A DNA stretch of 43,894 bases, from positions 1 through 43,894 of IMG/VR virus record IMGVR_UViG_3300006104_001195. One strand, 5' to 3'. Both the position numbers and the translations under genes were made by a program. Every line of letters begins with the position of its first letter. Positions within the stretch are counted from its first letter, which is position 1. Positions 10,607 to 42,220 of this stretch are shown here, in pieces. Source of the DNA: a virus. The notes beneath the pieces are model-generated. The model did no database searches. It was not told the origin of the DNA and saw only the letters and a list, made by a program, of their open reading frames with translations.

Positions 10607-10617
10607 GGAACGATTGA

Positions 10618-15873: not shown

Positions 15874-16052
15874 CTTCTCCGCTAGATAGACTTCGTAAAC
15901 TGCTAATACAGGAAGGCTGCTGCACTTACTGTCTAAACATGCGTTCTGTCAAAGGAAAGACCCTTGGTAGATTCGAGAAAGAGAACTGCCCCGCTTGCTT
16001 TGGAAGCGGGTTGAACGTAGAAAAAGAATGGGAACAGCTGCATGCATGGTAA
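15870..16052 (+). CDS. Small zinc-finger-like protein, 60 aa
   Basis: Two Cys pairs (GCCTYC and CPACFGSG) separated by about 20 residues form a zinc-ribbon-like knuckle; the second resembles the CxxCxGxG repeat of DnaJ. It starts by ATGA overlap and overlaps the queE start by 11 bases. Possible nucleic-acid or protein-binding adaptor; function unknown. Confidence 0.6.
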   Translation: MTSPLDRLRKLLIQEGCCTYCLNMRSVKGKTLGRFEKENCPACFGSGLNVEKEWEQLHAW

Positions 16053-16752
16053 CAATGAACCGCGTAGTTCCGAATCCTTCAAAGGAACATACCAGGTACA
16101 CGAGGTTTTTCATACGATACAAGGGGAAGGGCCTTTTGCTGGGCTTCCCGCTGTTTTCGTACGATTGACGGGGTGTCACTACAGGTGCCATTTTTGCGAC
16201 ACTGTGTGGGACGACGCAAAAGACCCTCAGCTAACGACTGAAGGACTCGTGAAGTTAATTAAGATCTCCTCTAGCAAGTGTAAGCTAGTAGTAATCACTG
16301 GAGGAGAACCTTGCCGACAGGACCTTGCTCCTATACTTCAAGAACTTCTCTCTGACGGATACAAAGTACAGGTCGAGACGGCAGGGACCTTCTGGCAGGA
16401 CTGCCTTCAGTGGGACGGTGTAACTATTGTGTGCTCCCCTAAAACTTCTAAGGTTCACAGAGAAATACTGGACTGTTGCAATCACTGGAAGTACGTTGTT
16501 CGAGCAGGGGACGCCTCAGAAGAAGACGGGCTACCTGTAGAAGGAACACAGAAAGATCCTAACGGTGGACCTCACAGGGGAAGTGCAATGGCAAGACCTC
16601 CGAAGACACGAAAAGCGAACGTGTACCTTCAGCCTTGCGATGAGTATGACGAGTCTAGAAATAAGGCTAACATGAAGCACATGGTAGACATTTCCATGAA
16701 GTATGGGTACAGGGCTGGGTTACAGCTGCACAAATACTTTAATGTGCCGTGA
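16042..16752 (+). CDS. queE: QueE-like 7-carboxy-7-deazaguanine synthase (radical SAM), 236 aa
   Basis: QueE rearranges 6-carboxytetrahydropterin to 7-carboxy-7-deazaguanine. The iron-sulphur motif CxxxCxxC is C45, C49, C52 in TGCHYRCHFCDT, preceded by the family signature FHTIQGEGPFAGLPAVFVRL. ITGGEPCRQDL is the radical-SAM GGE motif and binds S-adenosylmethionine. A later QPCDEYDESRNKANM segment is also typical. It stands apart from the other que genes, 3.2 kb after queF and directly before the DNA polymerase, starting inside the preceding gene. Confidence 0.92.
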   Translation: MHGNNEPRSSESFKGTYQVHEVFHTIQGEGPFAGLPAVFVRLTGCHYRCHFCDTVWDDAKDPQLTTEGLVKLIKISSSKCKLVVITGGEPCRQDLAPILQELLSDGYKVQVETAGTFWQDCLQWDGVTIVCSPKTSKVHREILDCCNHWKYVVRAGDASEEDGLPVEGTQKDPNGGPHRGSAMARPPKTRKANVYLQPCDEYDESRNKANMKHMVDISMKYGYRAGLQLHKYFNVP

Positions 16753-23530: not shown

Positions 23531-24460
23531 ATGAAGGCAGTAATTTTTGACATTGATGGAACACTATGTGATCTGTCACACAGAAAGCACTATGTTACCG
23601 GCACACAACATGACTGGGATTCTTTCTTCAGCAAGTGTGGAGACGACAAGCCTTTTGAGCCTGTGATCAATCTTGTTCGATGGATCCGGCAAAAAGATAG
23701 TTTGAAGGTACTGCTTGTATCTGGAAGGCCTGAGAAAACAAGAGAAGTAACAACTAAGTGGATGCATGACCACAAGGTTCCGTTCGATGTAATCTACATG
23801 CGTAAAGACAATGACTATCGCCAAGACTTCATTATTAAAGAAGAAATACTGAACGAACTGCAGGATAAGGGCTATAAGATTGAGCTTGTTGTTGACGACA
23901 GGAACACTGTTGTGGACATGTGGAGGAGAAGGGGAATTACCTGCCTGCAATGCCGCGAGTGGGACGAGAAACGACCCGCTGCAAGGGTGCCTGTTCTTTC
24001 AATAATGATAGGCCCTTCGGGGGCAGGAAAGAGTTTCTTTTTAGAGAAACTTGTTGAAGAAGGGTCTGTACATTCCTCGCAGATCGTTTCATCAGACAGG
24101 ATACGACTAGAGTTGTGTGGTGATTTTAGAGACCAGACAAAGAACGAAGAAGTGTTCGAGGCATGTCACGAAATCATACAGGCAAGACTAAACAATGGGC
24201 TCGACACTACGTTTGATGCTACCAACCTACGTCGAAAAGATAGGGTCGGTGTTGCAAGCCTAGCGAAGGGCGGACCCGTGAGGTACATTGTTGTGGACAG
24301 GCCTCAGGAGAAGAAAAAGAGGGACGGTGGATGGAGACTAAGTCTTGGATTCGACTTAATCTCTAAGCATTCAATGACATTCAATAGTCAGCTGAAAGAT
24401 ATTCTAAAAGGCGACAATCTGCCTAACGTTGAAGTTATTGATATAAGGGAGGCCACATGA
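23531..24460 (+). CDS. Polynucleotide 3'-phosphatase/5'-kinase (domains in reverse order to T4 Pnkp), 309 aa
   Basis: Residues 1-150 are a HAD phosphatase: VIFDIDGTLCDLSHRKHYV (D7, D9), LLVSGRPE, and a late VVDDRNTVVDMW Asp pair. Residues 155-309 are a P-loop kinase: MIGPSGAGKSFF (Walker A at 161-168), a VSSDRIR segment and FDATNLRRKDR. Together they heal broken RNA ends by removing 3'-phosphate and phosphorylating the 5'-OH. In T4 Pnkp the kinase comes first; here the phosphatase does. The next gene is an RNA ligase with a 4-base overlap (ATGA), forming a repair operon against host tRNA-cutting defences. Confidence 0.88.
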   Translation: MKAVIFDIDGTLCDLSHRKHYVTGTQHDWDSFFSKCGDDKPFEPVINLVRWIRQKDSLKVLLVSGRPEKTREVTTKWMHDHKVPFDVIYMRKDNDYRQDFIIKEEILNELQDKGYKIELVVDDRNTVVDMWRRRGITCLQCREWDEKRPAARVPVLSIMIGPSGAGKSFFLEKLVEEGSVHSSQIVSSDRIRLELCGDFRDQTKNEEVFEACHEIIQARLNNGLDTTFDATNLRRKDRVGVASLAKGGPVRYIVVDRPQEKKKRDGGWRLSLGFDLISKHSMTFNSQLKDILKGDNLPNVEVIDIREAT

Positions 24461-25581
24461 AACACTTTGCTAGAACAGTTCCTTTCGGCAAGCTCTACTA
24501 CAATCTACATGTAGAGGTGGATGCAGGTAATGTACGAAAAGTCAAGGGCCCTGAGGGCTTAGAGCTTTTTTGCTATACAGAAAAGTGTGTATACGAAAAG
24601 AATTGGAATGAGTATACACGTACAGCAAGGGGATTAATACTTGATCCACTGAACTTTCAAGTGGTGGCAACGCCATTTGAGAAGTTCTTTAATGTGGGAG
24701 AGCATGAACAATCCTTGCCTGCATTACCTTTTGAAACCTTCGAAAAGCTTGACGGGAGCTTAATTATCGTGTTCTTCCACAAAGGAAAGTGGAGGTGTGC
24801 CACTAAAGGAAGTTTTAGTTCCTGCCAAGCAGGGTGGGCCGACGAGCAAATAACAAGATTCGAGCACCTGCTGGAAGAAGGTACAACATACCTATTCGAA
24901 GCTATCTACACAGAGAACAGGATTGTTGTTCGATACAACTATGAAGGACTTGTACTTCTTGGTGCGTATGATCCACAAGGCAATGAGAAATGCTCCGAGG
25001 AACTGTGTGCAATTGCAGCACGAATTGCTTGCAAGATGGCGGCTCGTATGAACCACGGAAGCGTGTCGGAGCTTCTAGAAATAGTAAAAATTCTTCCTGC
25101 AACAGCAGAAGGATTCGTTGTTCGATTCTGCAATGGACTTCGTGTAAAAATTAAAGGAGATGAATATTGCCGCATTCACAGGATGGTTAGCAGGCTAACG
25201 CCTCTTGCTGTGTGGGAATCTATGTCTGCGGGAGATGACATCGAAGCTATGAGAAAGGACTTGCCCGAAGAGTTCTGGGTTGATTTTGATACGATTGTTC
25301 AACTTCTTTCTAGGAAAATAAACACAAAAATACAGCAGGTAATGGTAGCGTACAGGGACCTTCGTCTAGGGGAGCTGTCCGACAAAGAACTGGGTCTTCG
25401 TTTAAACGAGTTCCCTGAGGACATAAGAGGCTTCATATTTGCATGGCGCAGGAATAATTGTGACCTTCTCAGTGGAAGGTCAAGAAAATACTTGTTCAAT
25501 TCAATTAGACCTGACGGCAACAGGTTAGACGACTACACGCCGTCATCGACATTCAATCGTGTAATGGAAGAGGCAAAATAG
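24457..25581 (+). CDS. rnlA: T4 Rnl1-like RNA ligase, 374 aa
   Basis: Nucleotidyltransferase motif I is FEKLDGSL with the AMP-accepting Lys at K97 (T4 Rnl1 K99). ARGLILDPLNFQVV and PFEKFFNVGE upstream, TYLFEAIY (III), AEGFVVRF (IV) and RVKIKGDEY (V, K231/K233) follow the Rnl1 order, and the length equals that of T4 Rnl1 as I recall it (374 aa). It seals RNA ends prepared by the preceding phosphatase-kinase, classically tRNAs cut by host anticodon nucleases. It is the last rightward gene; only one base separates its stop from the stop of the leftward endolysin. Confidence 0.92.
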   Translation: MKHFARTVPFGKLYYNLHVEVDAGNVRKVKGPEGLELFCYTEKCVYEKNWNEYTRTARGLILDPLNFQVVATPFEKFFNVGEHEQSLPALPFETFEKLDGSLIIVFFHKGKWRCATKGSFSSCQAGWADEQITRFEHLLEEGTTYLFEAIYTENRIVVRYNYEGLVLLGAYDPQGNEKCSEELCAIAARIACKMAARMNHGSVSELLEIVKILPATAEGFVVRFCNGLRVKIKGDEYCRIHRMVSRLTPLAVWESMSAGDDIEAMRKDLPEEFWVDFDTIVQLLSRKINTKIQQVMVAYRDLRLGELSDKELGLRLNEFPEDIRGFIFAWRRNNCDLLSGRSRKYLFNSIRPDGNRLDDYTPSSTFNRVMEEAK

Positions 25582-25582
25582 C

Positions 25583-26107
25583 TTAAGCCACTGTTCCACC
25601 CGCTTTCACATAAATTTCTTTGACTTGGTTCATTGTGCGTATCGACTGACCAAGAGTAGACGTTGGAAGTGATGCCCATATCCTTCCACACTTCTCTATG
25701 GCGCTTTCAAAGTTACCGGCATCAACGTCATTCAAGGCCTTGCATTCGCGTATCTGCTGTAAGGCTATTGCGTCCTGAGATGCAGGAGAGAAGTCTTTAA
25801 GACCCAGTTGTTTGCAGTACGGGGCATAGTAACGCGCCATGAGCTGGTAGCGCCCAGCTGCATCAGAGAACGCACCGATCTTCTTTATCCAGACTTTGAT
25901 GTTTGGATGTGTTGCGTAGTTTTCGAAAGTGCCTCCCCCAACAATCGCACGATACCCGTCGTCGCTATTTGGGATCTGCGGGGTTCCTTCACTCCATGCA
26001 ATGGTATTCAGGAAGGCTTTACGGTTCACGATTGCTACGCTATCGGAGGGATGTTGTATGAGCGATAAAAAGGCTTTCCATAGCTCAGTGAACATTTTGG
26101 GTGCCAC
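25583..26107 (-). CDS. Lambda R-like endolysin (lytic transglycosylase), 174 aa
   Basis: NRKAFLNTIAWSEGT with the catalytic Glu, then GYRAIVGGGTFENYATHP, AAGRYQLMARYYAPYCKQLG, KDFSPASQDAIALQQI and KCGRIWASLPTSTLGQ follow lambda gpR closely along the whole length. gpR cleaves peptidoglycan of Gram-negative bacteria without hydrolysis. About 25 extra N-terminal residues precede the lambda start; there is no clear signal or anchor sequence. The GTG at 26107 overlaps the stop of the upstream gene; an ATG at 26095 is possible. No Rz/Rz1-like spanin is seen downstream, since the gene ends against the rightward block. Confidence 0.93.
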   Translation of the reverse strand: MAPKMFTELWKAFLSLIQHPSDSVAIVNRKAFLNTIAWSEGTPQIPNSDDGYRAIVGGGTFENYATHPNIKVWIKKIGAFSDAAGRYQLMARYYAPYCKQLGLKDFSPASQDAIALQQIRECKALNDVDAGNFESAIEKCGRIWASLPTSTLGQSIRTMNQVKEIYVKAGGTVA

Positions 26108-26439
26108 TAATGCTTGATGCCGTAATAGAGGTTTATGCCCCAGCCCAATGCGCTTCCAAGCGTAAATATCATGAAAGATCCTAGCTTGGCGAGCAGTTTT
26201 CCTTTTTCCACTTCATCACTTGTGCTGTCGATCTTCGATCCAAGTTCTACGACCATTTCTTTGAGTTCTTCAAAATCTACCAAGCGGCGAGCAGAATCCT
26301 TTGTGTCCTGATCCTTTCGCTCCTGCATTTGTGTCGCGATCCGAGTCACTGTGTTTTCCAGTGAACTCAGACGCGAAACAACTTCCGTCTGATGTCGAAT
26401 ACATGCGTCGATTTGTCCTTGCGAGCATACTAGCGACAT
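26107..26439 (-). CDS. Coiled-coil protein with C-terminal membrane helix (possible holin or antiholin), 110 aa
   Basis: Residues 10-80 are a charged coiled coil (VSRLSSLENTVTRIATQMQE and following), residues about 88-106 a membrane helix (LGSFMIFTLGSALGWGINLY). This order, coil then one C-terminal helix, resembles the haemolysin XhlA type found in phage lysis cassettes. It lies directly before the endolysin with overlapping stop/start, so a lysis role is likely. Start ATG 26439 is 3 bases after the preceding stop. Confidence 0.6.
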   Translation of the reverse strand: MSLVCSQGQIDACIRHQTEVVSRLSSLENTVTRIATQMQERKDQDTKDSARRLVDFEELKEMVVELGSKIDSTSDEVEKGKLLAKLGSFMIFTLGSALGWGINLYYGIKH

Positions 26440-26442
26440 GAT

Positions 26443-26775
26443 TTATGACACCGGCGTTGAAACACCTGTTGCATCCGTCAGAGCGGCCGCATTCGCAACA
26501 GCAGCAGAGATCTCTACTTGCGCGTCGGCCGCAGCGTTTGCTGCAAGTGATCCAGCAACAGCAGCAGCAACTTGCGCCGCTGCTGCAGCGGGATTACCCG
26601 CAAGCGCAATAGGAAGAGCAACAACCGCAGCTTTAAGTGCATCCTTGCCTTCCTGCTGTAGAAGAGTTAAAAAGAAGGCCTTTGCGTAGGGCCATACATC
26701 TTGTTCGAAGAAGTTCTCGAATTTTTGTAACGCTTCGACAGCATCATTTTCGACTGTCTGTACGAAATCGGTCAT
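26443..26775 (-). CDS. Ala-rich putative lysis-cassette protein, 110 aa
   Basis: The N-terminal 45 residues are amphipathic and aromatic (FENFFEQDVWPYAKAFFLTL); the rest is an Ala/Val-rich stretch (AAVVALPIALAGNPAAAAAQ and onward) that could be one or two weak membrane helices or a helical repeat. First gene after a strong promoter (26812-26840) with an ideal AAGGAG site. Position in front of the coil-helix protein and endolysin suggests a holin-like or accessory role; not proven by sequence. Confidence 0.55.
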   Translation of the reverse strand: MTDFVQTVENDAVEALQKFENFFEQDVWPYAKAFFLTLLQQEGKDALKAAVVALPIALAGNPAAAAAQVAAAVAGSLAANAAADAQVEISAAVANAAALTDATGVSTPVS

Positions 26776-28092: not shown

Positions 28093-28962
28093 TCATGGAT
28101 GTTGATAAGCCGATACATTATTGACGTACATTGTTCTCGTCGTTGTGTCTGTAGGTGTCGTCCATAGCGCATTAGACAGGTACAAGTATAGCGGCAGTAG
28201 GTTCCACGGGTTAGTGTTGTACCTGCCTACCTCCACCCTATCTAGATAAGATATAATGTTCGTGTGATTTATGAGAAGACCGATCTTGTGGTAAGTTCCG
28301 TCGAAAGTAGTTTCTGATGCAGGAAGTGTAACCGCTCCTTGGTTCACAGATCCTACCCAGACGATAGACGTAACAGAATATAGCGTCGGATACGTCTCAT
28401 AAGTCTCAACAGCATCAATTTCAGAGTACTTTGAACCGGGTGTACTCATTGCATTGACACTATCCATCCAGAAGGCAGGCCAAGCGCCAGAGTTGCTGTC
28501 GACGGGATAAGGAAACTTCATTGAGGCTTCAAAATAGCTTGCTCCTGTCGAAGTATTCGGTACGCCTTGTGAGAATCCGTTGTTGCCACTGTAGTCGACA
28601 GACTGAAGGCTTCCGCTCTTCCAGCTTCCCGAAGCATGCGTGGTTATAAGAGACAGTACTCCACCAGACACAGAGTACGATGCAGAAGGAACAGTGTCGA
28701 ACGTAGACGCTCCGTAGGAGAAAGACTGTGGATACCATGTGCAAACGTTGCCATTTGTGCATAGATCGTTCGTCGCAAAGTTCTCATTAAAGGTTTGTGT
28801 GAATCCAGTTAGACTTAATGCGTTTCCTGCGTGAGATGTATCCCAGAAGAAGATGGACGGAACTGCATTATAGGCAAGCGCAGACTTCAAAATGCCACCC
28901 GCATATGACGGGGTGATTACCATCATATAGAGGATGATGCTAAGAAGAGTGCGCTTGAGCAT
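28093..28962 (-). CDS. Secreted GH16-like glycoside hydrolase, 289 aa
   Basis: Signal peptide: residues 1-21 (KR, hydrophobic core, cut after SYA). Then a concanavalin-like glucanase: FNENFATNDLC near the start, a YFEASMKFP strand followed by GAWPAFWMDS, and YSEIDAVETYE with E181, D183 and E186 in the GH16 pattern ExDxxE. GH16 enzymes cut beta-glucans, agars and similar polysaccharides, so it is a candidate depolymerase for host capsule or biofilm. It is last in a run of adhesin-like genes and joined to the upstream gene by TAATG overlap. The Sec signal on a phage enzyme is unusual. Confidence 0.75.
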   Translation of the reverse strand: MLKRTLLSIILYMMVITPSYAGGILKSALAYNAVPSIFFWDTSHAGNALSLTGFTQTFNENFATNDLCTNGNVCTWYPQSFSYGASTFDTVPSASYSVSGGVLSLITTHASGSWKSGSLQSVDYSGNNGFSQGVPNTSTGASYFEASMKFPYPVDSNSGAWPAFWMDSVNAMSTPGSKYSEIDAVETYETYPTLYSVTSIVWVGSVNQGAVTLPASETTFDGTYHKIGLLINHTNIISYLDRVEVGRYNTNPWNLLPLYLYLSNALWTTPTDTTTRTMYVNNVSAYQHP

Positions 28963-29591
28963 TAGTCGGCACCGATGAAATAAGCCTGACCCACAACTGT
29001 CGGGTTAGTTGTGGTCGTAGCAGCATCGAGCTTGGCTTGGATATTAGTGTTAATGCTAACCCATAACCCCTGCGGCACAACCAAGCAGCTGGCAGTCGCA
29101 GCCGGAGCAGAGATGTATCCGATGTCATTGCTTCCGTTGCTGATCGTAAGCACATGGGCAACGGTATCGCGGTTATACATGCAGAGAGAGTTAAGCCCCA
29201 AACGCTTTCCTGTAGTTCCGACAGCTAGGTTGACAAGCGAGGTTGTGGACATGGTGTTGGCGATATTATAAACCATCTCAGGAGTAGCCCCTATCTGAAC
29301 AACCTGAGCACCGTCGGTACGAGCCATGATATTAATAGGCGTTCCGTTCGTAACTGCAGTGACAGCAGAGTTAGCAGCCTGCCCTGTAACGCCTGAAGTC
29401 CAAAGAGAATATAACCCCTTTAACATAGCAACCATCGACCAAGAGCTTGTGGAGTTCGTGGCTGCAGAATCAGACGTTGAACCTTCAGCCGTTGACGAAA
29501 TAGGCTGAGGGTTCGGATTGGGTGTGAAAGACGCAAACGCTAGGCTGGGAAGAGCCAGAAACATTGCAATTGTGATAAGAAGCTTTTTCAT
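28962..29591 (-). CDS. Secreted structural/adhesin-like protein, 210 aa
   Basis: I choose the ATG at 29591, overlapping the previous stop (TAATG), rather than one at 29627; it gives a perfect signal peptide (MKKLLITIAMFLALPSLAFA, cut after AFA). The mature part is Ser/Thr/Asn/Ala-rich and beta-like (STAEGSTSDSAATNSTSSW), typical of phage surface or fibre-associated proteins. Two Cys in the second half could form a disulphide after export. Binding target unknown. Confidence 0.65.
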   Translation of the reverse strand: MKKLLITIAMFLALPSLAFASFTPNPNPQPISSTAEGSTSDSAATNSTSSWSMVAMLKGLYSLWTSGVTGQAANSAVTAVTNGTPINIMARTDGAQVVQIGATPEMVYNIANTMSTTSLVNLAVGTTGKRLGLNSLCMYNRDTVAHVLTISNGSNDIGYISAPAATASCLVVPQGLWVSINTNIQAKLDAATTTTNPTVVGQAYFIGAD

Positions 29592-30076
29592 TAGTTCACC
29601 GTATAGTTGGTTTTTGCACCGTCGCAATGGAACGTCACAGACTGATAGGGCGTGTTCATCACAAGGCTCGTATTAGGCGTTAGGATCGTTCCAGAGGCGG
29701 CAGATACTGTCATTGTATTTGTGCCGCTGAACGTACCACATTCATCCGTAACGACGACCACGAGGCCGTTATTCGTGCCGTTACAAGCAGGGATCGTTTC
29801 AGTCGTGACTGCGCCAGAAGATAAGCACCAGCGGATTTCATAGTCGGATGTAGAGGCCGTGTCGCTTGTTCCCGATGTAATCGTGCGTCCGGCAAGACTA
29901 ATTCCTCCGCCACCCGAATACATGCTTCCCATAGAGATCCAGTTCGTCCCGTTGCAATACGCCATGACGTTGTTAGAGCCGTACGCTATCTCCCCCGCAA
30001 CGCCAGACGGCGAGGTACATGCCGCGTGTGCTGCACACGGCAGAAGCAGGAAGATGAGGACAAGGAGCTTTTTCAT
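29591..30076 (-). CDS. Secreted fibre-like protein with CNGTNW motif, 161 aa
   Basis: Signal peptide: MKKLLVLIFLLLPCAAHA, cut before ACTSPSGVAGE. The following GEIAYGSNNVMAYCNGTNWI is a motif (G-x-I-x-Y, then YCxGTxW) that I recall in tail-fibre and surface proteins of other phages. Several Cys (ACTSP, YCNGT, WCLSS, ACNGT, ECGTF, HCDGA) point to disulphides, which would need an exported location. The rest is a beta-rich domain. Likely an accessory adhesin; unproven. Confidence 0.65.
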   Translation of the reverse strand: MKKLLVLIFLLLPCAAHAACTSPSGVAGEIAYGSNNVMAYCNGTNWISMGSMYSGGGGISLAGRTITSGTSDTASTSDYEIRWCLSSGAVTTETIPACNGTNNGLVVVVTDECGTFSGTNTMTVSAASGTILTPNTSLVMNTPYQSVTFHCDGAKTNYTVN

Positions 30077-30387
30077 TAGGCTACCACTGTAGCTCCGGCG
30101 AAAGCTGGGAGCGTGAGAAGGAACTGTTCGGTCATACCGACGATAGCCTGTTGTACTGTAGCCCCAGAGGCCGGAGCAGTCGCAACATCTAGAAGCATGC
30201 CCGAAACGTCATAGGTTGCCGTTCCAAGAGGAGTCCCGCCAGATGCGAATGTCGGTTGATCCAAGAAGCACAAGACTTGGGCCTGAGCCTGTGGGGGAGA
30301 TTGGTTCAACGCATTCGGAAGGCTAGACACCACATGATAGGTCGCCGTGGCTCCGTTAGATTGCTTGATCGAGGCTTGGATTGGCAT
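30076..30387 (-). CDS. Hypothetical fibre-region protein, 103 aa
   Basis: ATG 30387 with AGGAG upstream; the stop overlaps the next ATG by one base. No signal peptide, unlike both neighbours. Beta-rich (ATYHVVSSLPNALNQ, TATYDVSGMLLDVATA). Could be an intracellular assembly partner for the exported or fibre proteins beside it; inference only. Confidence 0.55.
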   Translation of the reverse strand: MPIQASIKQSNGATATYHVVSSLPNALNQSPPQAQAQVLCFLDQPTFASGGTPLGTATYDVSGMLLDVATAPASGATVQQAIVGMTEQFLLTLPAFAGATVVA

Positions 30388-30398
30388 GTTGGCTCCTG

Positions 30399-33300
30399 TT
30401 AGAAGGTGTAAGCTGTGAGATTGATATAGGCAGAGGAAGAAGCTGATCCTGTGGTGTAGTACATCGTTTGCGCGGTTATTAGGGGGATATTGACAAGATT
30501 ACCCTCTACGTTGAGCGATCCGTTATTGCTGTTCAGAGATGATCCACCAGTACCACTCGAATCTCCTGCGACGATTGCAGATGCATTGTTGACTGTGGCC
30601 ACGAGACCTATGTTTCCGCTCCAGCACTTAGCGTTAGGTGGAACAATGGCCGTCATGCTGACCGAGGCATAACTCGCTTGCGCGGTGCCGCTGACCATCG
30701 AGGTCGCGGGGACATAAACCGTCGTCCCCTGCTGCCAAAAGGTCGTGAAATGCGCCGAGGCATTCATATAGACCGCGCCGATCAGATAGCTCGCCGTATA
30801 TCCGCTGGGCAGATTCGAACCTGCATAAATGGTCGCACCACTGCCCGTCGTCGTTCCAAGTATGCTCTGAGTACCTGTAGAAGGTTTATAAATGGCATAG
30901 ATGTAGAGCCAGCCAGAGGTCGGAGGAGATCCAGTATCCATGCCTCCTGCTCCAGTACCGCTAACCGTGAGCGTCTGGTTGTAACTTGCGAGCTTGTAGG
31001 CGGTACCACCAAGAGCGGTTTCAACCGTTAGTTCATCAGCATTCCAGATCGCAGCTGTCGTTGATGAGTATTTTCCAACTAGACGCTGATAGTTCCCTAT
31101 AGATTCAGCACCTATGAATGCATTGGCATTCAGAGAACCGTTCACATCGAGCGTGGCACTATTGCGGATCGTCGCCGTACCGATGCCAATCGCACCGCTT
31201 GGGAAGATAATCATATCGTCCGCAAACGTTCCTGAGTTCCTGCAGTTAAATCGTAAAGAACCAGAACCGCTAGCTGTCGGGAGCATGGACATTGCACAAG
31301 CTGCTGTAGAAGCAGACGTATCGTTCCGCATATAAATCGTGACGGCATCTCCCGCTGTCGTATCGGAGTTGTACAGAACAAGAGCGTCATTTGATTGAGG
31401 GGCTGTCGCAGAATATGCCGTGTTCAAAGCGTACTGCAGACCAAGACCGGGAGTAGATGATGTAAGACCTGCTGTGCTTGTACCAATGGATACAGTTCCT
31501 TGTACGCTAAGACCGTTTGTAGGAGCGTTAATACCAACGTAGCTTGTTCCGATCGCAAGACCTGTCGTACCTAGTGCCATGGTATCAACTGAATTTGCAG
31601 CAAATCCAATGGTATTGGCTGCCGGGAGGTAGATGCCATTAGTTGGAGCAGTGTTCCCAGTTACAACCTGACTTGTTCCTGTGACAGCGCCAGAGCTTGT
31701 TACCGCTCCTGCATTCCAGACGCCTGTAGCGATCGTCCCTACGCTCGTCAAAGAAGAACCAGTGACACCCGAGGCAAGCGTTGTTCCTGTTAGGTTTGCA
31801 GCAGGAACGGCATTGGCTGTAATGCTCGTATTGCAGCCGAATCCTGTGTTAGTCGTCCAGATTAAGGCAGACGAGGCAGAGCTGCATCCGCCAATTGCTA
31901 AAGCTGTTACGTTCGCCGTTCCGCTTGTGGAATTACCCAAGATGGTGTTTGTCGCTATCTGGGCCAAGTTCGTAAGAGCAACGCCGTTCGTAGTAGTCAG
32001 TGTGGTAGCATTGATCGTACCGTTGACGTTTAAAGCGCCAGAAGTTGCAGTTGTACCAATAGAAACATTACCCTGAACTATCAATCCATTAGTCGGTGCA
32101 GATAAACTCGCGTAACTAGTACCAATGGCAACATTTCCATACGCACCTAGTGTGGATCCCACCTTACCTGTTCCTATACCGACGGTCTGATTTCCCATCA
32201 CATACAAAGTCGGGTTTGCGTCGCTGGCTGCTGCGTTACCGGGAGCGAATATCTCGGTCGTGTCCAAGCTATTCTGAAACGCTGTGCTCATGATATTAGG
32301 GTAGGTGTACCCTAAGGATGTAAGCATGTTCGTTGCACCGACTGCAACCGCACCCTGCATTGATATTGATGCACCTGAAACTGCGGATGTGCTCGTTCCA
32401 ATCGTAATCACACCAGTCGTCATTAGACCGTTCGCAGGTGGTGAAGTCGTGCTTCCGATACTTACACCACCTCCTGTAGGGTTTAGAAGAAGAGAACTGG
32501 AATGATCTAAACTTGAATAGAAGCTAGAAGCTTGAATCGAAGACGCATTTCCAGTTCCGTAAGTATAATAAGATCCTATGTAAGTGCGTTGACCAGTTGT
32601 TCCTCCTGATGAGCCTAAAAGAAGCTGAGCGTTCGACACTGGATTTGTCGTCATATTCGCATAAGAAGCAGTGTTCTCTATTTCTGTCTGCGCGTTCCAT
32701 GTTGAAAAGGTTCCGATAGAGACACCTGTGGTTCCGATCACAACTGAATTGGTAGGACTGCCCTTCGCGATATATAACGGGGTTGTACTATCCGTTGTGT
32801 CTTGAATCTGAAACGCATTCGATCCGACCTGACCAGCTACCCATGCAACGCCGGTCCCATAATACTGTGTACTGGAATAATTCGAGTTTGCAGATGCCAC
32901 AAGAAATGCACCTTTTCCCAGTACCTTATTGTAAACCCGCGCGCTAATATCAGATGAATTCGTTGTGTTCACGACATCGAGCGGGAAGCTCGGTGTATTG
33001 GTTCCGATCCCGACCGATCCCTGAACCGCAAGACCATTTGTAGGCGAGGATGCCCCGCTAAATCCAGTGCCAGTTCCGATAGACACACCTGCAGGTGTCA
33101 GCGTTACCGAGCCGTTGAAATTTGCTGAAGCATAGTTGGCGTGAATGATACCGTGCGTGGTGGAGTCCGAATATGAAGGATTTCCCACGCTGGTATTTTG
33201 CCAGACCGTATCCTCATAAGTTTCCTGAAGATCGCCTACGCCATTAGTATAAACATAATACGACGGAGCATAATTGCCCGATGCTTCAAGCCCCTTGATC

Positions 33301-34802
33301 GTGATACGATCAAACAGATAACCGTTGCCGAGCAGATAGAAAAGTCCTTGTTCTGACCCAGCCGTTGTCGAGGCCAACCAGAGGGTTGAATCCTCAATCT
33401 TGATAACCGAAGCCCCTGTCATCCGGATAAATGGACCTGTCTGTTGTTCAAAGTGGGTCGTATAGAATTTGGCTTGGATCTGCACACCGCAGACACCCGC
33501 GCCAGTTCCGTTGACACCACCAGCTGCGCCTCCTCCGTTATAGTCGAAGTGATCTCCGAAGAAACCCCATTCGTCATACTCGTTGAAGTTCGCGCCGCAA
33601 TGGGAGTTATCATAGAAATTCGAGGCGTAAACCTTCATAGTTTCACCTGAATTTGAATTTCCGTTCGCCACGTAAATCCCGTCATAATTATCGTGGAAAT
33701 GTACATTATTCAGGGTGATCGCCCAAGTATTATTCCCATACTGGTACGCACGATAAAATCCACTAACGTCCACATCGTCGTACATCGTACCCGGGGACCA
33801 GTAAGTCGAAGGAGTAATAACCCCGTTCGGATCACCACCTGCATAAATCCCTACATTGGTGTTCCCTGACGAATAGCCTGAAGAATGTTGAATCTGGCAG
33901 TGCTGAACGACGTGGTTTGTCTTCGTCGTGTACGGCATCCATGAAGCCTCTGCCGTAATCAAAGCCGCGCCAGTCGTAGGCGTGTAGTTCAGAGTTGCTC
34001 CTTGGCAATCCAAAATTATATTATTAGGAATTGTAATTGATGCGGTATAATTATAGGTTGTTTGCGGGTTCAAAATAATTTTGCCTTGCGCTGAACCTGC
34101 ATGAGTTACAGCAGCATTGATCCATGCTCCTACATCCGAGCCCGAACACCAAGATGGCGCACTTGAATTACCACACGAACCTGCATCGAAAGTATGTGTG
34201 AGATTAGTTGTCGCATCGCCTTGATTAGACGTCCCCGTCCCACCATTCCCTACGCCAAGCGTACCCGCAAGCGTCACTGCGCCTGTTGTAGCAGTTGAAG
34301 GCGTAAACCCTGTAGTACCTGCAGAGAAGCTCGTGACAGGAGTTGAACCGCTCGTCGTGATCGAAGATCCAATCGACGTAACGATATGCTGCTGGGCTGC
34401 TACAGTACCGCTTGCGCCCGTGTCCAAAGAATAGGCCGGAGAATTAGTTCCAATACCCAGTCGATAATTCGTATTGTCCCAGAAGAAATTTGCGTTATTT
34501 TGGGTCGATGTACCTGTTGCTCCAGCGAAGAAAACACTTCCAGGTGTTCCTGATATGCTGCCCCCTCCTCCTGCCTGAAACGTGGCTAAGGATCCCGGTC
34601 CGTTAGACGTAAGCACATATCCACTTGTTGCGCTTGATCCCCCGTAAACACCTATAGGAAGCGGGCTAGTGCTGGTTACAGGTGTTGATCCTGATCCAGA
34701 ACTGTTCTGGGTATAGGGGATCACGGATGTTTGTGCACAGCAGAAAGTAGTCGACAGCAAAATCCAGGCCATCGTTTGAAGAACTACCTTATTGAGCATC
34801 AT
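30399..34802 (-). CDS. Large beta-helix tail fibre/tailspike-like protein with signal peptide, 1467 aa
   Basis: Residues 1-23 form a signal peptide (ending FCCA before QTSV). Residues about 205-560 read as a pectate-lyase-like right-handed beta-helix (QGKIILNPQTTYNYTASITI, NNVHFHDNYDGIYVANG), the fold of many depolymerising tailspikes. From about 580 to 1290 short repeats recur, built on APTNGLSVQGTVSIGTS, giving a long repetitive shaft. The C-terminus (about 1290-1467) is a non-repetitive beta domain. Cys pairs (GSCGNSSAPSWC) suit an exported protein. It is the main adhesin candidate. It starts 4 bases after the small signal-peptide gene. Confidence 0.8.
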   Translation of the reverse strand: MMLNKVVLQTMAWILLSTTFCCAQTSVIPYTQNSSGSGSTPVTSTSPLPIGVYGGSSATSGYVLTSNGPGSLATFQAGGGGSISGTPGSVFFAGATGTSTQNNANFFWDNTNYRLGIGTNSPAYSLDTGASGTVAAQQHIVTSIGSSITTSGSTPVTSFSAGTTGFTPSTATTGAVTLAGTLGVGNGGTGTSNQGDATTNLTHTFDAGSCGNSSAPSWCSGSDVGAWINAAVTHAGSAQGKIILNPQTTYNYTASITIPNNIILDCQGATLNYTPTTGAALITAEASWMPYTTKTNHVVQHCQIQHSSGYSSGNTNVGIYAGGDPNGVITPSTYWSPGTMYDDVDVSGFYRAYQYGNNTWAITLNNVHFHDNYDGIYVANGNSNSGETMKVYASNFYDNSHCGANFNEYDEWGFFGDHFDYNGGGAAGGVNGTGAGVCGVQIQAKFYTTHFEQQTGPFIRMTGASVIKIEDSTLWLASTTAGSEQGLFYLLGNGYLFDRITIKGLEASGNYAPSYYVYTNGVGDLQETYEDTVWQNTSVGNPSYSDSTTHGIIHANYASANFNGSVTLTPAGVSIGTGTGFSGASSPTNGLAVQGSVGIGTNTPSFPLDVVNTTNSSDISARVYNKVLGKGAFLVASANSNYSSTQYYGTGVAWVAGQVGSNAFQIQDTTDSTTPLYIAKGSPTNSVVIGTTGVSIGTFSTWNAQTEIENTASYANMTTNPVSNAQLLLGSSGGTTGQRTYIGSYYTYGTGNASSIQASSFYSSLDHSSSLLLNPTGGGVSIGSTTSPPANGLMTTGVITIGTSTSAVSGASISMQGAVAVGATNMLTSLGYTYPNIMSTAFQNSLDTTEIFAPGNAAASDANPTLYVMGNQTVGIGTGKVGSTLGAYGNVAIGTSYASLSAPTNGLIVQGNVSIGTTATSGALNVNGTINATTLTTTNGVALTNLAQIATNTILGNSTSGTANVTALAIGGCSSASSALIWTTNTGFGCNTSITANAVPAANLTGTTLASGVTGSSLTSVGTIATGVWNAGAVTSSGAVTGTSQVVTGNTAPTNGIYLPAANTIGFAANSVDTMALGTTGLAIGTSYVGINAPTNGLSVQGTVSIGTSTAGLTSSTPGLGLQYALNTAYSATAPQSNDALVLYNSDTTAGDAVTIYMRNDTSASTAACAMSMLPTASGSGSLRFNCRNSGTFADDMIIFPSGAIGIGTATIRNSATLDVNGSLNANAFIGAESIGNYQRLVGKYSSTTAAIWNADELTVETALGGTAYKLASYNQTLTVSGTGAGGMDTGSPPTSGWLYIYAIYKPSTGTQSILGTTTGSGATIYAGSNLPSGYTASYLIGAVYMNASAHFTTFWQQGTTVYVPATSMVSGTAQASYASVSMTAIVPPNAKCWSGNIGLVATVNNASAIVAGDSSGTGGSSLNSNNGSLNVEGNLVNIPLITAQTMYYTTGSASSSAYINLTAYTF

Positions 34803-34806
34803 TGCC

Positions 34807-34971
34807 TCAGTTGGATACAGTGGGAAGTGGGTTGTTTATGGAAACAGGTGTGCATGAGCTTGATCCTGCAGGCTGTGTTGTCGAATTCGGAACACAGAAG
34901 ATCACAGCTGATTGAGCACGTGCAGGTGTGACGTAGCAAATAAGAATGGCCGCTACAATAAGCAATCGCAT
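34807..34971 (-). CDS. Small secreted protein, 54 aa
   Basis: ATG 34971 has an ideal GGAGG 8 bases upstream; an ATG at 35010 lacks a well-spaced site. Signal peptide MRLLIVAAILICYVTPARA, then a mature part of only 35 residues with two Cys and the ending SCTPVSINNPLPTVS. That ending resembles the early mature part of the large fibre next door (STPVTSTSPLPIG), so one may derive from or bind the other. Function unknown. Confidence 0.6.
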   Translation of the reverse strand: MRLLIVAAILICYVTPARAQSAVIFCVPNSTTQPAGSSSCTPVSINNPLPTVSN

Positions 34972-35064
34972 GGCAAGCGCCTCCACAGAGCTGTATTTCA
35001 ATTTAATCATAGTGTGGCGTCCTCATTTTCTAGCATATTTAGGTTCAGATATCAAGTGTTTTCT

Positions 35065-35577
35065 TTAGGCGATAGAGATCTGGTTAGAAGGAAGTGACCC
35101 TAACTTTCCCGCACTGTTGCCGTAGAGGGTAGCAGCTGAAATGAAGTCCGCGAAGGATGTTGCAAAAGCTTTGAACTCAGCTATTCCAGGGAACAAGTGT
35201 GTCGACCCCCCTTCATCAACCCATAGATAAGTGGCGGTGCCTCCAGGAAACACTCCGTTAAGAAGCACATATGTTACAACAGCGTTCAAGCTAGCTTGTG
35301 ATGAAAGGCTAGTTGAGTAAGTGCCATTCAGCGCAGGGTAAGATGCTGATGTTACACTCAGTCCTTGAGAAAGTACCTGCTGCGCCATGTCTTGGGGCGT
35401 CATTAAACGTGCAACGGGAGCAGAAGGAGCAGGATCTGAAACAGGCGGAGGAGTAAAAGTGCTTCCATCAAAGAGCCACCCTTCTGCTACAATAGATCCA
35501 CAAGGGATGCTGGCTGATGAAAGTTTCCCTGGTGAAACAGATACGACAACACCGTTTGTTACTTGTGCGAATGCCAT
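35065..35577 (-). CDS. Tail fibre-associated protein, possible assembly chaperone, 170 aa
   Basis: The start (FAQVTNGVVVSVSPG, then GWLFDGSTFTPPP) follows the pattern of phage tail-fibre assembly/DUF4376-like proteins: a beta domain with 'W-x-F-DG-xxF-xPP' and a Pro-rich linker. The rest is helical and Ser/Ala-rich. Its start overlaps the tail-collar gene region (2-base gap), supporting a fibre function. The gap 35011-35064 after it holds nothing recognisable. Confidence 0.55.
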   Translation of the reverse strand: MAFAQVTNGVVVSVSPGKLSSASIPCGSIVAEGWLFDGSTFTPPPVSDPAPSAPVARLMTPQDMAQQVLSQGLSVTSASYPALNGTYSTSLSSQASLNAVVTYVLLNGVFPGGTATYLWVDEGGSTHLFPGIAEFKAFATSFADFISAATLYGNSAGKLGSLPSNQISIA

Positions 35578-35579
35578 GG

Positions 35580-36347
35580 TTAAGCTGTCCTTTGCCAGAT
35601 GTAAACTGCGATAGAAGGCTGTATGTTGTTGTGGGCAGTTCCTCCGCCCGTATTCTGAATGTTGGCGTTGCCAGAAACAGTGCTCAACGTGTTATAAGGC
35701 CCGTTCCCTTGCGCAAATCCGTTTGATCCGCCAGTTGTTCCGGAAACTGGAACCAGATGCGTGTGACCCGTATCCGTATGGCTATGGGCAGGCATTTCTC
35801 CTGTCGTTAATGTGTGTAGGTATTCACCTAATTGTTGGCCTATCGTTACGGTTTTCGAAGTTCCGTCACCATCGGTGAAACTACCTACACCGATAAGAAC
35901 CTGCCCTGCTGCGAAAGCTGTCCATGTTCCAAAACCCAGAAGGGTTGCAGGGTTAGTCGAACTGCTTACATTAAAGTACAGGCTTCCAACAGGATAGACT
36001 GCCTGTATCGTTGTACCTCCAAGGTTGGCAAGTGCTGTCGCAGCGCTAGAAACATCGGAGAGATTATTGACAGCAGCTAAGTTAGACGATGTCAGCTGGT
36101 CCCATATTGTGTTTCCTAAGCTATCCTTTACGAGCTGTCGGTACTGCCCTTGTCCATAAATAATAGCCTCCCCTGCACTATCAAGTGTAATAGGGTTCGT
36201 GTTCAGTATTGTCTCCCCTGCATCTTGCCATGTCGACTTCGGCGTCGAAGTGCTTGGAACGTAGAAATACACTGATCCCCCGGACAAGGGGACAGCATTG
36301 CTGTCGAAGAATTGCTGTTTACCATTTGGCAGTAGACTTGCTGTCAT
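35580..36347 (-). CDS. Tail fibre protein with phage tail-collar domain, 255 aa
   Basis: The C-terminal half is a tail-collar domain: AVYPVGSLYFNVSSSTNPAT, LLGFGTWTAFAAGQVLIGVG, GEMPAHSHTDTGHTHLVPVS and a final HNNIQPSIAVYIWQRTA. HxH motifs of this kind bind iron between chains of trimeric fibre tips. The N-terminal part (QQFFDSNAVPLSGGSVYFYV) is the common fibre opening domain. Likely a receptor-binding or short tail fibre. ATG 36347 follows AGGATGAAAA. Confidence 0.85.
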   Translation of the reverse strand: MTASLLPNGKQQFFDSNAVPLSGGSVYFYVPSTSTPKSTWQDAGETILNTNPITLDSAGEAIIYGQGQYRQLVKDSLGNTIWDQLTSSNLAAVNNLSDVSSAATALANLGGTTIQAVYPVGSLYFNVSSSTNPATLLGFGTWTAFAAGQVLIGVGSFTDGDGTSKTVTIGQQLGEYLHTLTTGEMPAHSHTDTGHTHLVPVSGTTGGSNGFAQGNGPYNTLSTVSGNANIQNTGGGTAHNNIQPSIAVYIWQRTA

Positions 36348-36562: not shown

Positions 36563-36802
36563 TTGGTGTTTCTTTTAACGCATGACCCATTAACGACTAT
36601 TCTTTATGGGATAGGCATTGCTTTTGTGTACGGCGTCTTCATGGGACTTACGAGGCAGGTGAGCCCTCGTGACATACCTTCACCTAGAACTGTTATTGTA
36701 GAGAAGCCCCGCGTAGGGGGCGGCGGAGGTGAGAGCATTCTGAAACTGCGGGACTTCTCCCGTGCTCCGAAATCCCTTGAGGGAATTAGCCGCGACCTTT
36801 GA
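36563..36802 (+). CDS. Possible small membrane protein, 79 aa
   Basis: TTG 36563 with GGAG 5 bases upstream, within the hairpin. Residues about 11-28 (TILYGIGIAFVYGVFMGL) form a membrane helix, followed by a Pro/Gly linker. The last 40 codons overlap the end of the oppositely oriented 959-aa gene, and that part looks like antisense sequence, so the natural end is uncertain. Doubtful, but the helix and the upstream control structure justify listing it. Confidence 0.3.
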   Translation: MVFLLTHDPLTTILYGIGIAFVYGVFMGLTRQVSPRDIPSPRTVIVEKPRVGGGGGESILKLRDFSRAPKSLEGISRDL

Positions 36803-39559
36803 ACCTGCAGTAGGTGATAGCATCAATTGAACGAGAGCGTTCTGTGTGCGTGAACTGCCTTTGTTGAAAGGTGACGCAAGTGTTCTGCCTATACCTTGTC
36901 CTACCGACGAACCGACCGCTGCACCTATTTCTGAAGGTACACCTACACCTTGTGCAAGTCTGCTTCCCGCCCAAGCACCTGCCGCCGAGCCTAAGAATTC
37001 GGGGTGCAGGTTACGTCGCCACCCTTCAGGAGTATTTAGGCCAAACTCAGACTTGACCTTATCCACCATTTCCTTCTTGGGTGTTGTGGGAGACCCGCTA
37101 GTGTTTCTTGATAGCAGGTTGTTGACAGAGTCGTCACGTTCCAGGCTGCGCTGTACGTTCCTAAGCGCCTCGACATCTTCATCTGTGACATACCTCAAGG
37201 GATTGGTGGGGGAGGTTATGTTGACCCTGTCTTCTAAGGTTTTCAAAGCAGACGTTACTTTGTTTAGGGTTGGTGCAAAACCGGGGGAACCTTCACTCGC
37301 CTCAGGATTAACAAGACCTAACTTCTGCAATGCCCTCATCCTGTCCTGTTCTGCGGATAGTTTTGCGTATTCCTGCCTATAGGCATCAAACTTAGGTGCA
37401 GCGTTCGGAGCAGAAATGGCGTCGTACAAGCGGCTTTTGATTTCTTTCAAATTAGCAATGGTTTCTTGGCTAGGTGCATCCGCTTTCATCGGATCACGAT
37501 TAACAACATCATTTATCTTATTTCGAACAATTTTGTAAAGCGTCTTCGGGTCTGTTGCTCGAGGGTCCTTCAAGGCAGTCTCAATGTCGTCTAGGTGCTT
37601 CAGAAGATCAGGGTTCGACCACTCCTCCTCCCTTATCCTAGGAATAGCTGCAAGTGTTTCAGATATGTCGGCTTTCCCGTTATTCTGCCAAACTGTACCT
37701 GTAGACAAGTTAGGGTCGTAAGCACGTCGAGCGGCAGAGTCTCCCATCCTTTCAGCGCCTTGTTGAAGCTTGGCTTCGACAGACTCCGCAATGTCAGAAG
37801 GCTTCCCCGTAAGCTGAAGAATAGCATTATTTCGAAGCTTGTCGTTATTAGCTTTCTGTGCTGCGAATGCAGGGTTGAACAAGGTAGGGTCACCTACGTT
37901 CGATTCCCTAAACACCTGCTCCAAGGCTGCAAGATTCCCCGCATTAGGGTCTTTTGCCATTGCAGCGGCTTTGGCAAGGGTTGTCTGTTCTGTCAACACA
38001 TTTCCGTGTTCATCCACCATTGAAGGTAGGTAGTTGTTCGTATCAAGCTTGGAAGGAAGTCCCCCGGCCAATCGCGTCATGACGTCAGCGGCCTTCTGTA
38101 CATACGGATCAGCTTTTGACACAATGCTTTTCAGCTTGTTGGCCGCAGAAATTCCAACGTCCAGAGCGGCAGGCATAGCAGAACCTAGCACTCCTCCGAC
38201 TTCTGCGTTCTGTTTAGCCTGTTCTCCTACAGATTGATTTGATCCTGCTGACGTCAGAGCCGTCAAGGGGCCACCTCCTTGCAAGGCTGCATTTGTTCCT
38301 GTAGCTCCGTACTGCAAGGCTTTGTTTCCTAGCGATGCGCCTTGTGTTACAGCACCTGTTGCAGGATCAATGACAGCATTGCTCGCTACTTTTCCCCCAA
38401 GGAAATTGACAGCATCACTTACTCCGTTAGCAACAGAAGCGGGAATGTACCCACTATCAGCAAGAGCATTGGCGCCTGTGGAGATACCTCTGCCTACCAG
38501 ACCTGCAGCTTTTCCAGCGACGCCCATCAACGGGGCAGACGCCACCATCTGTCCGATGGATCTGTTCAGATCAGAATGGGGGTCTTGTCCGTACTGCTGC
38601 TGAAATTGCTCATTGCGATTCTGCAAGTCGTTCAGGTATTTCTGAGAAGCGTTTCCGTTGTCTTGCTGGGCGTAGCCGGGATCAACAGTATTGACGACAG
38701 CGTTGAAAGCACTGGGTGCGTATGTTGCAGCTAGCTTCCCCGGGGAACGAACAACGTCTCCGGCACCTTGCTCCAGTTCACCTCCGATACGAGAGGCCTC
38801 TGCTTGCCTGTACGCCGCTAATGCTGCAGGGTCAGTTCTTGCAAGTTCACCGACCTGTGATATGCTTAAATGCTGTTGTAAGGGCTGGCCTGTAGGCCTT
38901 ACTGTGATGTGGGGAGCACCATTTTCATATTCCAGGTCACTGGGCTGTGAGGAAGGCGTCTTTTCTTTGGAAGGATCGTACGCGTCGATGTTAGCAAAGG
39001 CTTGTTCTCGGGGAGACAGCGGTGTTGCAGATTGGGTCGAGGAGGCATTCGAGGACATATCAGCTTTGGAAGGGTCATAGGCGTCGATGTTAGCAAAGGC
39101 TTGTTCTTTTGCAGTCAATCCTGCTTTCGAAGGATCCGGCTGCTGTGAGGGAACAGGCATAAAGTTACTTGTTGCACTTCTGTTCTTCTGCAGGTTGTTG
39201 AAAGTATCCCTGATTCCTTTGACGTAGTTTGCATCATATGACGCTGAATTCGGACCTGTCTTGTACATGGATAAGGCGCACGCTTCAGGATCAGGATCAT
39301 CCTTGCACTTCTGGAAATTGTCCCGTAGGTACCGAGCCATCCCGTCAATCGACGAACGCGGGTCAGTCCTATCTACTCCGTAGTCCTTAGCGGCTGCGTC
39401 TGTCATGGCAGCAAGGCCTGATGCTGAGCTGTCAGGATTCTTGAATGAAGGATCTAGCCCTGATTCATACGAAGATACAGCCTTCAACCAATCGGGATGG
39501 ATGCCGTACTGCGCACCCACTGAATTGAAGATGTCGTCAAAATCAGTGTTAGTGGTCAT
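36680..39559 (-). CDS. Large internal virion/ejection protein with lytic transglycosylase domain, 959 aa
   Basis: Residues 1-115 are an SLT-type transglycosylase: FNSVGAQYGIHPDWLKAVSS, YESGLDPSF with catalytic E32, and a SASGLAAMTDAAAKDYGVD segment. This type of domain opens peptidoglycan during DNA entry (compare T7 gp16). A linker repeats EQAFANIDAYDPSK twice (residues 152-165 and 185-198). The rest is a long Ala/Gly/Asn-rich helical body, as in podovirus internal proteins, with a Gly-rich segment near residue 900. ATG 39559 overlaps the preceding stop (ATGA), so it is coupled to the 567-aa protein. Confidence 0.8.
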   Translation of the reverse strand: MTTNTDFDDIFNSVGAQYGIHPDWLKAVSSYESGLDPSFKNPDSSASGLAAMTDAAAKDYGVDRTDPRSSIDGMARYLRDNFQKCKDDPDPEACALSMYKTGPNSASYDANYVKGIRDTFNNLQKNRSATSNFMPVPSQQPDPSKAGLTAKEQAFANIDAYDPSKADMSSNASSTQSATPLSPREQAFANIDAYDPSKEKTPSSQPSDLEYENGAPHITVRPTGQPLQQHLSISQVGELARTDPAALAAYRQAEASRIGGELEQGAGDVVRSPGKLAATYAPSAFNAVVNTVDPGYAQQDNGNASQKYLNDLQNRNEQFQQQYGQDPHSDLNRSIGQMVASAPLMGVAGKAAGLVGRGISTGANALADSGYIPASVANGVSDAVNFLGGKVASNAVIDPATGAVTQGASLGNKALQYGATGTNAALQGGGPLTALTSAGSNQSVGEQAKQNAEVGGVLGSAMPAALDVGISAANKLKSIVSKADPYVQKAADVMTRLAGGLPSKLDTNNYLPSMVDEHGNVLTEQTTLAKAAAMAKDPNAGNLAALEQVFRESNVGDPTLFNPAFAAQKANNDKLRNNAILQLTGKPSDIAESVEAKLQQGAERMGDSAARRAYDPNLSTGTVWQNNGKADISETLAAIPRIREEEWSNPDLLKHLDDIETALKDPRATDPKTLYKIVRNKINDVVNRDPMKADAPSQETIANLKEIKSRLYDAISAPNAAPKFDAYRQEYAKLSAEQDRMRALQKLGLVNPEASEGSPGFAPTLNKVTSALKTLEDRVNITSPTNPLRYVTDEDVEALRNVQRSLERDDSVNNLLSRNTSGSPTTPKKEMVDKVKSEFGLNTPEGWRRNLHPEFLGSAAGAWAGSRLAQGVGVPSEIGAAVGSSVGQGIGRTLASPFNKGSSRTQNALVQLMLSPTAGSKVAANSLKGFRSTGEVPQFQNALTSAAPYAGLLYNNSSR
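38982..39107. repeat. Two 27-bp direct repeats in the ejection-protein gene
   Basis: The same 27 bases (beginning GCGTCGATGTTAGC) occur at 38982-39008 and 39081-39107. They encode the repeated EQAFANIDA stretch of the 959-aa protein. Identity at the DNA level suggests a recent internal duplication or selection for the motif. Confidence 0.85.
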
Positions 39560-41581: not shown

Positions 41582-42220
41582 TTAAAGATAGCCTGCCATC
41601 GCTGCTCCACCCAAGCTATTAGCTCCTCCGGCAATGCTGTTGGCTATTCCCATGTATCCTGCAGCTTGCGCGTTGGCGCCACCCCAGATGTTGTTGGCGA
41701 CTTCTCCGCCTGTTGTGATCCCTGCAGCACCTAGGCTGTTGGTAGCACTCTGTCCAAGCTCTGTAAGTCCCATCAAGTGACTGAACTGGTTCGTTTGGTT
41801 AGTGACAGCATTGTTGAACTGCTGCTGATAATTGGTGGAAGCAAGTCCTGAGGCATAGCTTGCAGCTGATTTCTGCGCGGCTCCGGACAGTCCCAAGCCT
41901 TGGGCAGTGGCGCCGTTCTGAGTAGCTTTGAGACCTTGGGCCATTTGGAATTGATACCCCGGAGTCTGCTCAAGTTGAGACTGGTTCATTGTAATAGGAC
42001 TGGTTAATGATGTCAAGTTATTCGTAAGTCCTTGAGCACCTGCAGTTCCTAAATTCATGTAAGGTTGAAGGTTCTGGGCATATGTATTGTACATCCCCAT
42101 TTCAGCGTTAGTAGCATTCTTCGCCCCTGCCTGCTGTGCGCTTGATGCTGCAGACGAACCTATGGCACCTGCTGCACTGCTTACAACTGCTGATCCGATT
42201 AGGGCTGCGCCTACACCCAT
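41582..42220 (-). CDS. DNA-ejection-like protein, Ala/Gly-rich, 212 aa
   Basis: Opens with a Gly/Ala/Ser hydrophobic stretch (GVGAALIGSAVVSSAAGAIG), then QQAGAKNATNAEMGMYNTYA, a Gln/Asn-rich helical body, and another Gly/Ala stretch at the end (GIANSIAGGANSLGGAAMAG). P22 gp7/gp20-type ejection proteins have this make-up and are thought to form a channel across the host envelope. AGGAG lies 8 bases before ATG 42220. Its place at the head of the ejection genes supports the call. Confidence 0.65.
   Translation of the reverse strand: MGVGAALIGSAVVSSAAGAIGSSAASSAQQAGAKNATNAEMGMYNTYAQNLQPYMNLGTAGAQGLTNNLTSLTSPITMNQSQLEQTPGYQFQMAQGLKATQNGATAQGLGLSGAAQKSAASYASGLASTNYQQQFNNAVTNQTNQFSHLMGLTELGQSATNSLGAAGITTGGEVANNIWGGANAQAAGYMGIANSIAGGANSLGGAAMAGYL

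Follow-up and report, generated by a model that had tools for sequence, protein, structure and literature searches.

A viral contig of 43,894 bases (IMG/VR record IMGVR_UViG_3300006104_001195, the whole of which is the window referred to below) carries a run of six consecutive leftward genes, in which four products have clear Sec signal peptides and a fifth has a probable one. We consider it very likely that these signals are real and that, late in infection, the products undergo export and oxidation. With less confidence, we regard the run as probably a late cassette of exported accessory fibre-type adhesins and a GH16 enzyme that would be released at lysis. As far as predicted proteins can tell, a run of signal-bearing fibre-type genes is no local oddity, and recurs in many other phages.

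Gene organization of the window

The six consecutive reading frames delimited in the initial annotation were all found on the minus strand. The leftward order in the right half of the window is a DNA-ejection-type protein, a 567-aa protein of unknown function, an SLT protein, an anchor gene and the signal-bearing run, followed by small ORFs, two holin-like ORFs and an endolysin. The signal-bearing run thus sits between a virion tailspike-type gene (35580-36347) and the lysis genes. Below, genes are named by their left coordinates.

41582-42220, minus strand: phage DNA-ejection-type protein (PHROG 598)
36680-39559, minus strand: SLT protein, 959 aa
35580-36347, minus strand: tailspike-type anchor (P22-like head-binding domain) with a Gp10 C-terminal domain (Pfam Gp10_C, 2.5e-27)
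35065-35577, minus strand: accessory tail protein, 170 aa, without signal peptide (weak DUF4376 match)
34807-35010, minus strand: protein of 54-67 aa, signal TPA^RA / ARA^QS, 2 mature Cys
30399-34802, minus strand: tail-fibre-type protein, 1467 aa, borderline signal, repeated GIGT..P modules (PHROG 11518)
30076-30387, minus strand: 103-aa protein without signal peptide (PHROG 5084, unknown function)
29591-30076, minus strand: 161-aa protein, signal AHA^AC, 6 mature Cys, YCNGTNWISMG motif, no family match
28962-29591, minus strand: 209-aa protein, signal AFA^SF, 2 mature Cys, no family match
28093-28962, minus strand: probable GH16-type glycosidase (by EIDAVE motif and relatives), 289 aa, signal SYA^GG, 2 mature Cys
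25583-26775, minus strand: lysis region, with endolysin and two small holin-like ORFs

The anchor protein 35580 has no signal peptide and zero Cys, and is homologous to the tailspikes of phages PBR31 and X14. The endolysin (25583-26107) matches PHROG 90 (9.4e-46), and the size and hydrophobic stretches of the two small ORFs suggest that they are holins. The contig has no end repeats, and since the proteins scanned in the window gave no portal, capsid or terminase, the record is probably incomplete.

Elsewhere in the window, genes of the preQ0/7-deazaguanine pathway (QueC, GTP cyclohydrolase I, QueD (PTPS) and a radical-SAM protein) occupy 9791-12125 and 16042-16752, and this pathway likely serves DNA modification. 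A polynucleotide kinase/phosphatase adjoins an RNA ligase (23531-25581), forming a T4-like RNA-repair pair. The primase (5009-6565) is related to the AEP domain of TOTE conflict systems and is common, at about 30% identity, to phages of Acinetobacter and Klebsiella and to DSL-LC04; no relatives of it were confirmed in the IMG/VR scans. By primase, the closest named relatives of the window are DSL-LC04 and 023Pt_psg01 (32-35% identity). The fibre clusters of these phylogenetic neighbours show no clear signals, which counts against our main explanation.

Signal peptides in the six-gene run

Signal peptides were called with a sigcleave-type (von Heijne-type) weight matrix combined with h-region and charge rules. 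In a calibration on 100 kb of annotated E. coli K-12 sequence, the caller recovered 18 of the 22 proteins that we had labelled as Sec-exported, and made false calls for two of 62 other proteins, one of them LdtD. Four proteins of the run have the positive n-region, the hydrophobic h-region and the small residues at -3 and -1 of a Sec type I signal, with scores of 15.6 for 29591 (the strongest in the run), 9.8 for 28962 (read from the ATG at 29591), 7.6 for 34807 (from either in-frame ATG) and 7.0 for 28093. In 30399 the likely site, MMLNKVVLQTMAWILLSTTFCCA^QTS (FCCA^QTS), is borderline, with an h-region value of 1.4 and a Cys at -3, and no signal peptide was called in 30076. The initial annotation had credited five of the six genes with signal peptides and their mature parts with paired Cys. 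Its count holds for the four clear cases, with 30399 as a probable fifth; even numbers of mature Cys (two, two, six and two) were found in 28093, 28962, 29591 and 34807, but 30399 has 13 Cys in all and an odd number, 11, after the presumed cleavage. Both the borderline signal and odd Cys count of 30399 and the presence of the signal-less 30076 within the run were counted against the main explanation.

Among 62 mechanically defined genes of the whole window, five were called as signal-bearing, four of them within the run; the single call among the 56 genes outside was weak. The difference between the run and the rest of the window (Fisher p=1.3e-4) is a post hoc value, because the region had been chosen for its signal peptides. 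Two other sources of the calls were considered. For lipoprotein signals, no lipobox was seen in the signal-bearing window proteins; for wrong start codons, 28962 and 34807 have alternative starts, and both were called from either one. The starts of 29591, 28962 (the ATG at 29591) and 28093 overlap the upstream stop codons (TAATG), which suggests translational coupling in an operon. The mature parts of the called proteins have no obvious mutual sequence relation, except that the mature N-terminus of 34807 resembles by eye the start of 30399, and the signals are thus unlikely to be one inherited accident.

Functional content of the run

The description of the run as adhesin and enzyme genes fits 30399 and 28093, but 28962 and 29591 are without family match. 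The C-terminus of 30399 matches a tail fiber family (PHROG 11518, 2.7e-24); its modules are common to signal-bearing fibres of two other viral loci (L039 and L045), and one is shared, weakly (E 1e-3), with a region of PBR31 orf035. The ExDxxE catalytic motif of 28093, EIDAVE, is invariant with its IMG/VR relatives in loci L002 and L004, which match Pfam Glyco_hydro_16 (PF00722) at 2.5e-17 and 1.1e-19, respectively. Using phmmer, we obtained weak matches of 28093 itself to kappa-carrageenase and beta-glucanases; it had no direct Pfam match at E 0.1, and its AlphaFold model, built from a 3-row alignment, reached a pLDDT of 27. The GH16 assignment therefore rests on the motif and the relatives, by which 28093 is a predicted GH16-type glycosidase with an intact EIDAVE site. 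Its relatives in L002 and L004 are without signals, a further point against the main explanation.

No close relatives of 28962 and 29591 were found, none being confirmed in the IMG/VR scans, which likewise weighs against the main explanation, and tblastn searches of phage records with 28093, 28962, 29591 and 39556 gave no relatives. At the sequence level, a recognisable virion anchor is absent from the signal-bearing proteins of the window, and 35580 alone matches one.

Recurrence of signal-bearing fibre-type proteins

The initial annotation had raised the question whether fibre genes of other phages carry signal peptides. Two IMG/VR surveys and the genomes of cultured phages indicate that they do so recurrently. 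For the first survey, the 29591 motif, as YC[ND]GxxWxxMG, was used as a search and led to five viral contigs (L011-L015), of which three have a signal peptide on the motif protein and two of these three also on its neighbours. A profile of this tip domain gave 80 IMG/VR viral loci. The tip domain belongs to a signal-bearing protein in 51 of the 80 contigs, often accompanied by two to six signal-bearing neighbour genes. The profile also matched six bacterial genomes, all of them Acidobacteriota MAGs. Judged by eye from gene content, L097 is prophage-like, and L095, L096 and L099 are chromosome-like. The Acidobacteriota genome contigs with the tip domain include L096, L099 and L100; by eye, the neighbours in L096 and L099 are bacterial chromosomal genes (a sugar-nucleotide enzyme, a DNA polymerase I-like and an LpxC-like protein). 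The occurrence of the tip domain in Acidobacteriota suggests that phages and hosts exchange adhesin tips: either fibres move between the two, or the phages acquired them from host adhesins.

The tailspike anchor of 35580 was the query of the second survey, also of 80 loci. A signal peptide lies directly before the P22-like anchor in about 13 of the 80, three of them only at a relaxed threshold. The predicted cleavage sites include ANA^ATLLPNGKQQF (L104) and LWG^ATLMPNGEQQF (L131), and the signal-less relative L103 begins, after removal of Met, with MATLLPNGRQQF (M-ATLLPNGRQQF). Predicted cleavage of the signal-bearing tailspikes would restore the same kind of N-terminus as in their signal-less relatives. 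The AlphaFold model of the L104 anchor has a pLDDT above 90 over most of residues 31-110 and matches the tail proteins of Pan3 and Pam1, the P22 head-binding domain and Sf6 gp14 (E 3e-6 to 5e-3). By this modelled fold, signal-bearing proteins of other phages have a predicted virion-binding N-terminal domain behind the signal. In several loci (e.g. L104, L131 and L142), the signal-bearing anchor gene follows an internal virion or lytic protein, the upstream genes being judged by eye, and so occupies the usual tailspike slot. Loci L115 and L122 proved to be one contig (IMGVR_UViG_3300037156_000068), which has one anchor with a signal and another without; behind the signal-less anchor come two genes with signals, and the product of one (L122 6243-7568) looks by eye like an SGNH esterase. 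The signal-bearing tail-anchor domains of L027, L039 and L011 have a Cys pair that is missing from the aligned signal-less versions.

Three cultured phages encode similar proteins. Burkholderia phage BcepC6B gp19 has the signal peptide MKKLIAILLAVPALALG^ATL and four mature Cys, Xanthomonas phage PBR31 orf035 has MKKLIALFSLFCTSAFG^ATL and two mature Cys, and Rhodoferax phage P26218 gp24 has a signal peptide and two mature Cys. Like the window run, each gene is flanked by the lysis genes on one side and by a tail fibre or tailspike gene without signal on the other. Both gp19 and orf035 combine the signal with an LLNPAGST.GQAI.STG..SAP.W start, even Cys and the slot between tailspike and holin; their annotation goes no further than tail fiber or putative structural protein, and BcepC6B and PBR31 have one such gene each, in contrast to the run of five in the window. 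The PBR31 paper reports a signal peptide on the tail-hydrolase-like esterase gp40, and we found in it no mention of a signal on orf035 (PMC10975493).

Cysteine parity of signal-bearing proteins

Even Cys numbers tend to prevail in proteins whose folding takes place in an oxidising compartment. We compared the parity of signal-bearing proteins with that of signal-less proteins from the same contigs, counting per homology cluster and using proteins with 1-8 Cys. The ratio of even to odd was 33:7 for signal-bearing versus 148:219 for signal-less clusters (p=3.6e-7). Among Cys-containing members of the tailspike family, all nine signal-bearing proteins have even Cys, versus 22 of 47 signal-less ones. 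The even-Cys excess is most readily read as a footprint of oxidative folding outside the cytoplasm, and lends indirect support to the predicted cleavage by signal peptidase.

A link of signal and Cys pair was also seen within the tip domain, the pair being present in 48 of 50 proteins with a signal versus 5 of 22 without. The tip-domain tree has about 7-8 changes and no significant independent pairs of signal and Cys pair. This link was set aside as evidence of export since it reflects mostly shared ancestry, and the test per homology cluster was relied on instead.

Comparison with known systems

The tailspikes of the podoviruses P22 (gp9), Sf6 (gp14), Pam1 and PBR31 and the anchor of the window occupy the same slot after internal virion proteins, and tailspikes of the P22/Sf6 type share with the window the homologous anchor domain and fibre and polysaccharide-cutting modules. 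The known P22/Sf6-type tailspikes are without signal peptide, and so is the window anchor, the signal-bearing genes coming after it. Exported endolysins, such as Lys44 of fOg44, P1 Lyz and R21 of phage 21 (PMC6116005), are likewise a tailed phage's own enzymes placed outside the cytoplasm via the host Sec system before lysis; however, they cut peptidoglycan for lysis and are neither fibres nor tailspikes. The mosaic adhesive trimer (MAT) fibres of Bdellovibrio likewise carry, behind a signal peptide, phage-like fibre modules whose tips are diverse (PMC10769870), and are likened here to the window fibres by description. They differ in being bacterial surface proteins with a conserved beta-rich N-terminal domain of about 130 aa, encoded outside phage late operons. 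Phage DGR target proteins have been reported to be without detectable signal peptides (PMC6199706). In the literature searched, outside which most subscription papers lay, signal peptides were nowhere described as a feature that recurs among tail fibres or tailspikes.

Discussion

Export of the products, as the initial annotation had proposed, is supported by the calibrated calls, by recurrence in many phages and by the even-Cys excess of signal-bearing proteins. That the N-terminal hydrophobic segments are instead uncleaved structural elements or chance, rather than export signals, seems very improbable to us: the predictor is home-made and 30399 is borderline, but four proteins in one run of six have the n-h-c layout with AxA-type sites, and neither the recurrence, nor the Cys parity, nor the coincidence of cleavage sites with signal-less N-termini fits this reading. 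For the window, we infer that accessory tail-fibre-type adhesins and a GH16 enzyme that cuts polysaccharide form one cassette, expressed late, in which nearly every product would have a cleavable Sec signal peptide of its own. Late in infection, the host cell would export these products to the periplasm, where the signals would be removed and the Cys pairs would oxidise to disulphides, and lysis would set products and virions free together. Once free, the products would probably cleave or bind the extracellular polysaccharide that surrounds host cells, and some may also join the virions as additional receptor-binding components. The simplest role for the window products is that of accessory fibres and a polysaccharide-cutting enzyme freed at lysis; display at the surface, or a role without export, is less probable.

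Alternatively, the exported fibres could be receptor-binding virion parts that reach the periplasm via Sec, fold and form trimers there, and join the tails only once lysis breaks the inner membrane. The signal-bearing P22-like virion-binding tailspikes elsewhere, which lie in the usual tailspike slot in L104, L131, L142 and others and would regain the signal-less N-terminus on cleavage, make joining virions from the periplasm a real possibility, and the signal-less PBR31 tailspike, a relative of the 35580 anchor, has been described as apparently virion-binding at its N-terminus (PMC10975493). Nevertheless we hold this to be rather unlikely, as the window's own anchor protein has no signal, its signal-bearing proteins show no recognisable anchor, no proteome was found for such a virion, and it looks inefficient to add parts as late as after lysis, in a diluted lysate. 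Retention or display of the products at the surface of the infected cell, as a coating or a block to superinfection, is more doubtful still. It would suit the combination of signal peptides with fibre-like modules, the same tip domain on signal-bearing proteins of Acidobacteriota chromosomes outside obvious prophages, and the display of exported phage-like fibres by Bdellovibrio (PMC10769870); however, no lipobox, outer-membrane anchor or autotransporter barrel was recognised, and the adjoining lysis genes suggest late expression. We thus retain the late cassette freed at lysis as the preferred explanation.

The cytoplasm is normally regarded as the only place in which phage tail fibres and tailspikes fold and assemble. 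It is conceivable, though we think it rather improbable, that a widespread group of tailed phages, of Pseudomonadota at least and probably of Acidobacteriota, makes its receptor-binding tailspikes and fibres as Sec-exported, disulphide-bonded proteins of the periplasm and completes its virions only at lysis, on contact of the tails with the periplasmic pool. As BcepC6B, PBR31 and P26218 are cultured, the question of export is directly testable. If Sec export of tail fibres and tailspikes holds for a large set of environmental phages, the picture of phage assembly and of the folding of receptor-binding proteins would need revision in their case, and tail-derived proteins may account for some of the viral "secreted CAZymes" that have been reported as host-helping genes.
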